The notes beneath the pieces are model-generated. The model was not told the DNA's origin. It did no database searches and worked only from the letters and a program-made list of their open reading frames with translations. The position numbers were made by a program, and so were the translations under genes. From Utricularia gibba (Eukaryota > Streptophyta > Magnoliopsida > Lamiales > Lentibulariaceae), in the NCBI GenBank assembly GCA_002189035.1, contig NEEC01000008.1, positions 1,240,001 to 1,304,000 on the forward strand: a stretch of 64,000 bases of DNA, read 5' to 3'. Below, in pieces: positions 6,772 through 23,982 of the stretch (its first letter is position 1; every line of letters begins with the position of its first letter).

Positions 6772-6861
6772 GGCCTCAGAGATCTTGGTGGATAAAAGTC
6801 ATCAGATGGGCAACAGTGTTTCCCATCAAGAGTAGCAAATATCATACTCGCATCATCGGCC
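6772..6861 (-). ncRNA. U24: C/D box snoRNA U24 (25S rRNA 2'-O-methylation guide)
   Basis: Terminal stem GGCC (6861-6858) with GGCC (6775-6772); C box ATGATGC (6856-6850); C' box TGATGA (6804-6799); D' box TTGA (6829-6826); D box CTGA (6779-6776). The guide next to D, CCACCAAGATCT (6791-6780), is complementary to AGATCTTGGTGG of 25S rRNA, and the guide next to D', around ATATTTGCTACT, is complementary to the adjacent 25S AGTAGCAAATAT. This pair of neighbouring targets is the signature of U24 in animals, yeast (snR24) and plants. The rRNA sequence is recalled, not searched. The nucleotide five before the D box pairs with the C of AGATC, the predicted methylation site. Confidence 0.88.
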
Positions 6862-6996: not shown

Positions 6997-7075
6997 TTCG
7001 GGTCAGAAGTAGCTGGTTGAAATATCACAGAGTGAACTCATTGGGAATCCGTCTGATTTGTTCCTCATCCCCGAA
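6997..7075 (-). ncRNA. C/D box snoRNA, U80/snR60-like
   Basis: A terminal stem TTCGGG/CCCGAA (7075-7070 with 7002-6997) encloses a C box ATGAGGA (7068-7062, one mismatch to RTGATGA) and a D box CTGA (7006-7003). The antisense element AACCAGCTACT next to D is complementary to AGTAGCTGGTT of 25S rRNA and would direct methylation of the A in GTAGC, the site guided by U80 in human and snR60 in yeast. A second guide next to D' is not clear to me, so the name is tentative. Confidence 0.65.
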
Positions 7076-22990: not shown

Positions 22991-23982
22991 TTATATTGAT
23001 TCATCGGTCTCATCAGAATCACTGCCGCCGGCAGCTGCTCCGCCCTTGGAAACAGTGGTTTTGGATGGAGTCTGGAAAGCCACCTTCTTGTCGGAGTTGC
23101 GGGCATGATCGTCTCCGTATTCGTCTGCCTCAGTATGTAAATTGGGCAGTCAAGGAATGAACATTCTTGGTTCATCACTCTAGGGATGTAGTTAGCGTTG
23201 ATTAATAAACACAAAAAGGATATTGATGTTCTCTGCTGTTCCACCAGCCATGATGTTCTGTAAATCTCTCTCTACACGGCCGACGACCTCCGGCTGCATA
23301 TCAAGAACAAAGACAAGAATACGGATTAAGGAATGCTATTTAAGCCTTTTCATCGGAAAAAGATGGCCATGCCATGTTAACAATTGAAAAGAAATGCATA
23401 TTACGTTTAAATCTGGTTCCCTGCGGAATCTTCTCCTACGAGCGTCCCTCATTGGTGGAGTAAGTCCATGCTTATACTCTACGGGTTCAGGGATGCTGTC
23501 ACCATCCTCCCGCACCATTATTATCTGCCAGAAAAGAAGTCATCAGAAACAAGGCATCTCCCAAATACCATAAATATGTTTCACTCATAGGAATCACCAT
23601 ACTTGACCAATATCTGCTGTTTTGATCAAAACATTATCATCATATGTCTTGTATGATTCCACCACTGTGGGAAGATCCAAAAGGGATGCAGAGAAACGAT
23701 CATTTCCGATAACAAAAGTTCCAGTTCTTCCATCCTCTGGAACAAATGAATACAAACACTGAATCAGACAAACCGATAGTGCACCCAACAATTGGAACAT
23801 CTCCAGATAATAATGCAGCACCTAGCAATTATCTATGGTCACGAAAAGAGTCTCAGTCAAAAGTTACCTGAAAATGACAAATCCAAGTTCTTGTCCTCAG
23901 AAGATGAGGCAGATTCATTTAAGAGCAGCTCTATTCTTTCGGCAACAGCTGGTGGCACTCTCAGTATGAACTGCTCTTCCAT
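22991..23982 (-). CDS. TAF7: TFIID subunit 7 (TAF7) with a U12-type AT-AC intron
   Basis: Subunit of general transcription factor TFIID. Coding exons (minus): 23982-23868, 23736-23603, 23524-23405, 23293-23224, 23136-22991; 194 aa. The start MEEQFILRVPPAVAERI, GRTGTFVIGND, ASLLDLPTVVESYKTYDD, TADIGQ, VEYKHGLTPPMRDARRRRF and RREPDLN are TAF7 hallmarks; the tail is acidic (GGSDSDETDESI). A non-coding first exon ends near 24500 and its intron ends just before the ATG (acceptor at about 23991). Coding intron 4 (23223-23137, 87 nt) begins ATATCCTTTT, contains TTCCTTGAC and ends TTTAC: a minor-spliceosome AT-AC intron, and only this splice keeps frame (TAENINTEADEYGDD). Confidence 0.93.

Follow-up and report, generated by a model that had tools for sequence, protein, structure and literature searches.

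Coding intron 4 of TAF7, in the window analysed here (the whole stretch of 64,000 nucleotides), is almost certainly a U12-type AT-AC intron that would be removed by the minor spliceosome, joining position 23224 to 23136. This reading, already put forward in the initial annotation, stands as the best one, with the signals of the intron and matching snRNAs found in the same genome. By sequence the intron is a genuine member of the class because its signals are exact, their joint pattern is rare, the machinery is encoded in the genome and the sites pair with the snRNAs of the host. In the proposed mechanism, ATATCCTT at the 5' site would be recognised by U11 and then by U6atac, TTCCTTGAC would be recognised by U12 leaving the branch adenosine bulged, and the AC located 13 nt downstream of this adenosine would serve as acceptor. 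Joining 23224 to 23136 would then yield a TAF7 of 194 aa with an acidic C-terminal tail.

The gene is found on the minus strand and has five coding exons (Table 1). The initial annotation had placed the CDS between an ATG at 23982 and a stop ending at 22991, and the exon-by-exon rebuild led to the same limits, the five joined exons giving 194 aa in frame (MEEQFILRVPP...SDSDETDESI). The Pfam domain TAFII55_N was found at residues 1-139 of the product (115 bits, E 3e-33, over the Pfam cut-off), and chains of TFIID subunit 7 were matched in the PDB (E 2.7e-17). TAF7 is single copy, with one match in the whole genome and hence no paralogue for comparison. Coding introns 1-3 belong to the common GT-AG type and have 3' ends rich in pyrimidines; their donors are GTAACTTT, GTATGGTG and GTAATATG. 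Elsewhere in the window, also on the minus strand, the closely spaced C/D-box snoRNAs SNORD24 (6772-6861, 59.7 bits) and snoR12 (6998-7074, 72.1 bits) form a small snoRNA cluster.

Table 1 Position in the window of the coding exons of TAF7 and of the predicted elements of its intron 4. A slash marks an exon-intron boundary.
Feature	Position	Strand	Remarks
TAF7 coding exon 1	23868..23982	-	Start codon 23982-23980; then CAG/GTAACTTT
TAF7 coding exon 2	23603..23736	-	Ordinary GT-AG introns on either side
TAF7 coding exon 3	23405..23524	-	
TAF7 coding exon 4	23224..23293	-	Residue 139, the last with TAFII55_N homology, is just ahead of the predicted U12 junction
Predicted U12-type AT-AC intron (TAF7 coding intron 4)	23137..23223	-	87 nt, phase 1
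Predicted U12-type 5' splice site ATATCCTTTTTG	23212..23223	-	Pairs with host U11 and U6atac
In-frame TAA upon retention of intron 4	23192..23194	-	Protein would end ...AENINILFVFINQR
Predicted U12-type branch site TTCCTTGAC	23149..23157	-	Branch A 23150; distance to the final base of the intron 13 nt
TAF7 coding exon 5	22991..23136	-	Acidic tail ...SDSDETDESI; stop 22993-22991

Intron 4 starts with ATATCCTTTTT, contains TTCCTTGAC and has TTTAC as its final letters, so that its end sequences are ATATCCTTTTTGTG...TTCATTCCTTGACTGCCCAATTTAC. Both the coordinates (23223-23137, minus strand) and the three exact U12 motifs that had been described for it were recovered exactly. At 23223, ATATCCTTTT conforms to the extended U12-type 5' splice site RTATCCTT, and the branch site combines the likeness to TTCCTTRAC with a spacing within the published optimum of 11-13 nt for the distance from branch to 3' splice site (PMC3584512). 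The 3' end, GACTGCCCAATTTAC, has an AC and lacks a pyrimidine tract, as is the case in U12-type introns. The 5' site forms duplexes of -6.9 kcal/mol with host U11 and of -8.8 kcal/mol with host U6atac, and the branch site one of -8.3 kcal/mol with GAGTAAGGAA of host U12, with one bulged base. Minor introns are biased away from phase 0, and the phase 1 of this intron fits that bias (PMC10639083). The spliced junction expected at 23224/23136 would read ...AACATCA/ATACTGAGG....

AT-AC ends are also found in U2-type introns, including intron 1 of human TAF2 (PMC8280824), which shares with intron 4 of TAF7 both these ends and a location in the gene of a TFIID subunit. The U2-type AT-AC introns of sodium channel genes have been reported to carry a G at +5 (PMC2831892). 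That G, the criterion of a U2-type AT-AC intron, is absent from TAF7 intron 4, which has instead the C at +5 of the U12 type, plus a U12 branch site.

We listed all the GT-AG, GC-AG, AT-AC, AT-AG and GT-AC pairs that keep the TAF7 tail in frame. Many such pairs exist in the region of intron 4, and among those whose sites have some splice-site quality just two rivals stand out, GT 23212-AG 23129 and AT 23223-AG 23125. The former would be removed as a U2-type GT-AG intron of 84 nt (TTT/GTGTTTAT ... TACTGAG/GCA), leaving a product (...AENINILFADEYG...) that is in frame and free of stops. It would, however, turn the exact U12 signals into mere coincidence, its donor is weak (a T at -1, and neither A at +4 nor G at +5) and unlike the other three of the gene, and its acceptor has no pyrimidine tract; we consider it very improbable. 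Less probable still is the use of the U12 donor at 23223 with the AG at 23125, an AT-AG intron of 99 nt (...AENINEYGDD...). AT-AG minor introns are known (PMC8280824) and this one keeps the frame, but the combination has been described as disfavoured, the branch A would be 25 nt away, beyond the 11-13 nt published as optimal (PMC3584512), and a proper AC is available 13 nt from it. The initial annotation had taken phase as support for AT-AC. Translation bears out that an AT-AG intron via CTGAG (ending at 23129) shifts the frame, but 23125 and the pair 23212-23129 are in frame, and with so many in-frame pairs the argument is weaker than had been stated. Nor is the acceptor fixed by homology, since the conserved domain does not extend into the tail past the junction. 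What favours 23137, and with it the AT-AC intron, is the 13 nt between branch and acceptor together with splice-site strength, not phase.

Taken singly, neither of the two main motifs is significant, since their counts in the 64 kb window are near expectation: 3 against 1.5 for ATATCCTTT and 4 against 1.6 for TTCCTTRAC. The combined pattern, ATATCCTT N40-70 TTCCTTRAC N7-14 YAC, was found at a single locus of the window. A search of both strands of the 100 Mb genome gave six rows that correspond to four distinct loci, as TAF7 was counted twice (it has two ACs) and one locus is found on two contigs; the reversed pattern, used as control, gave 0 matches on both strands of the same 100 Mb. When spliced AT-AC, all three other loci produce in-frame junctions in conserved genes. 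One, presumably a Na+/H+ exchanger of the NHX type, reads FLLPPIIF/QSGFSLQP, another, which we take to be NSF-like, reads YAIVGDVFVLSLAQDANIRSGQ, and the third, reading TKFLLMGDDAVYDELQ, codes for a zf-C2H2_jaz protein, ZNF593-like. For animal Nhe3/SLC9A7, related to the exchanger locus, an AT-AC minor intron has been listed (PMC2831892). The three loci serve as positive controls, and with all of them in frame and no match in the reversed control, it appears that real introns are what the strict pattern picks out in the host genome. The distance from branch to end is 17 and 19 nt in two of the three, and the 11-13 nt optimum is therefore no absolute limit here.

The ZNF593-like locus is the one present on two contigs (L009, C414:3151066-3151155; L010, C415:5068-5157), identical over the matched stretch, likely because the locus was recently duplicated or the contigs overlap in the assembly. 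Searched genome-wide with the same strict signals, AT-AC introns (four distinct loci plus a longer one) outnumber GT-AG ones (two plus one), albeit in small numbers. GT-AG introns make up 73-86% of the U12 introns of four other plants (PMC7367187). The numbers are small and the pattern strict, but the AT-AC excess may hint that GT-AG minor introns have been lost or converted in this compact genome.

The minor-spliceosome RNAs are encoded in the same 100 Mb genome. Scored with Rfam models, the genes of U12 (86 bits), U6atac (87 bits) and U11 (74 bits) are all above the Rfam cut-off. The most authentic-looking candidate for U4atac (L013, 1501-1646, minus strand) is below it, with 34.7 bits where the cut-off is 53. 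It has the 3' terminus CAAUUUUUGGAA, keeps the AAUGA.CGUAUAG segment, contains an Sm site and, by prediction, base-pairs extensively with U6atac. The upstream sequence element (USE) of plant snRNA genes has the consensus RTCCCACATCG. It is matched at 11 of 11 positions, 66-79 bases upstream, in all four genes (U11, U12, U6atac and the U4atac candidate), each of which also has a TATA box ~30 bases upstream. L013 is thus probably the U4atac gene despite its score, which alone is no proof. The Rfam model of U4atac is perhaps ill-matched to the host lineage, since a low score coincides in L013 with a perfect USE, a TATA box and an Sm site. Two other candidates were rejected as U4atac, L012, which overlaps a tRNA-Leu and has no USE, and L014, also without USE. 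At the protein level, the genome codes for a CCDC84/CENATAC-like protein (1.2e-27) and a U11-48K-like zinc finger protein. In human cells nearly all minor introns of the AT-AN type depend on CENATAC (PMC8280824).

If intron 4 were retained, the reading frame would stop with the whole TAFII55_N domain already complete. On top of its splicing as a U12-type AT-AC intron, retention of this presumably slow intron could act as a regulated switch producing a TAF7 without acidic tail and tying TFIID composition to minor-spliceosome activity, an added role that we regard as very unlikely. The retained frame ends 10 residues past the junction region with the conserved domain intact, A-type minor introns show, in human cells, elevated retention even under basal conditions (PMC8280824), and the U12 intron of plant CBP20 also divides a core from a tail domain (PMC5932401). 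Premature stops are, however, expected in most retained introns anyway, and a tail lying beyond the conserved domain may be lost without consequence. That regulated retention would alter TFIID function through tail-less TAF7, depending on the activity of the minor spliceosome and especially of CENATAC, is slightly more doubtful again, and a regulatory role ("gating") of this intron is speculation.

The TAF7 intron has the features of described U12-type AT-AC introns, namely the ATATCCTT 5' site, the TTCCTTRAC branch site 13 nt from an AC end, the lack of a pyrimidine tract and phase 1. It differs from them nowhere in structure and only in the host gene, TAF7 not being named as such a host in the papers searched. 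Like the U12 intron of CBP20 in land plants, it is placed between a conserved core domain and a C-terminal tail; the conservation of the CBP20 intron across plants is documented (PMC5932401), whereas the TAF7 intron is described here from one genome. In four plants 13-26% of the U12-type introns are AT-AC (PMC7367187), and genes for information processing, of which TAF7 is one, are favoured hosts of U12 introns (PMC3584512); for these reasons it is one more, ordinary member of a well-described class. No statement about a minor intron in TAF7 / AT1G55300 was found in the open papers searched, most catalogues sitting in supplements, and it may already figure in existing catalogues. It provides a minor intron that is clean and can be checked, in a gene of basal transcription and within a compact plant genome that retains the minor-spliceosome machinery. 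It is also a warning for gene prediction, as programs that allow GT-AG alone would overlook the junction or the tail of TAF7.
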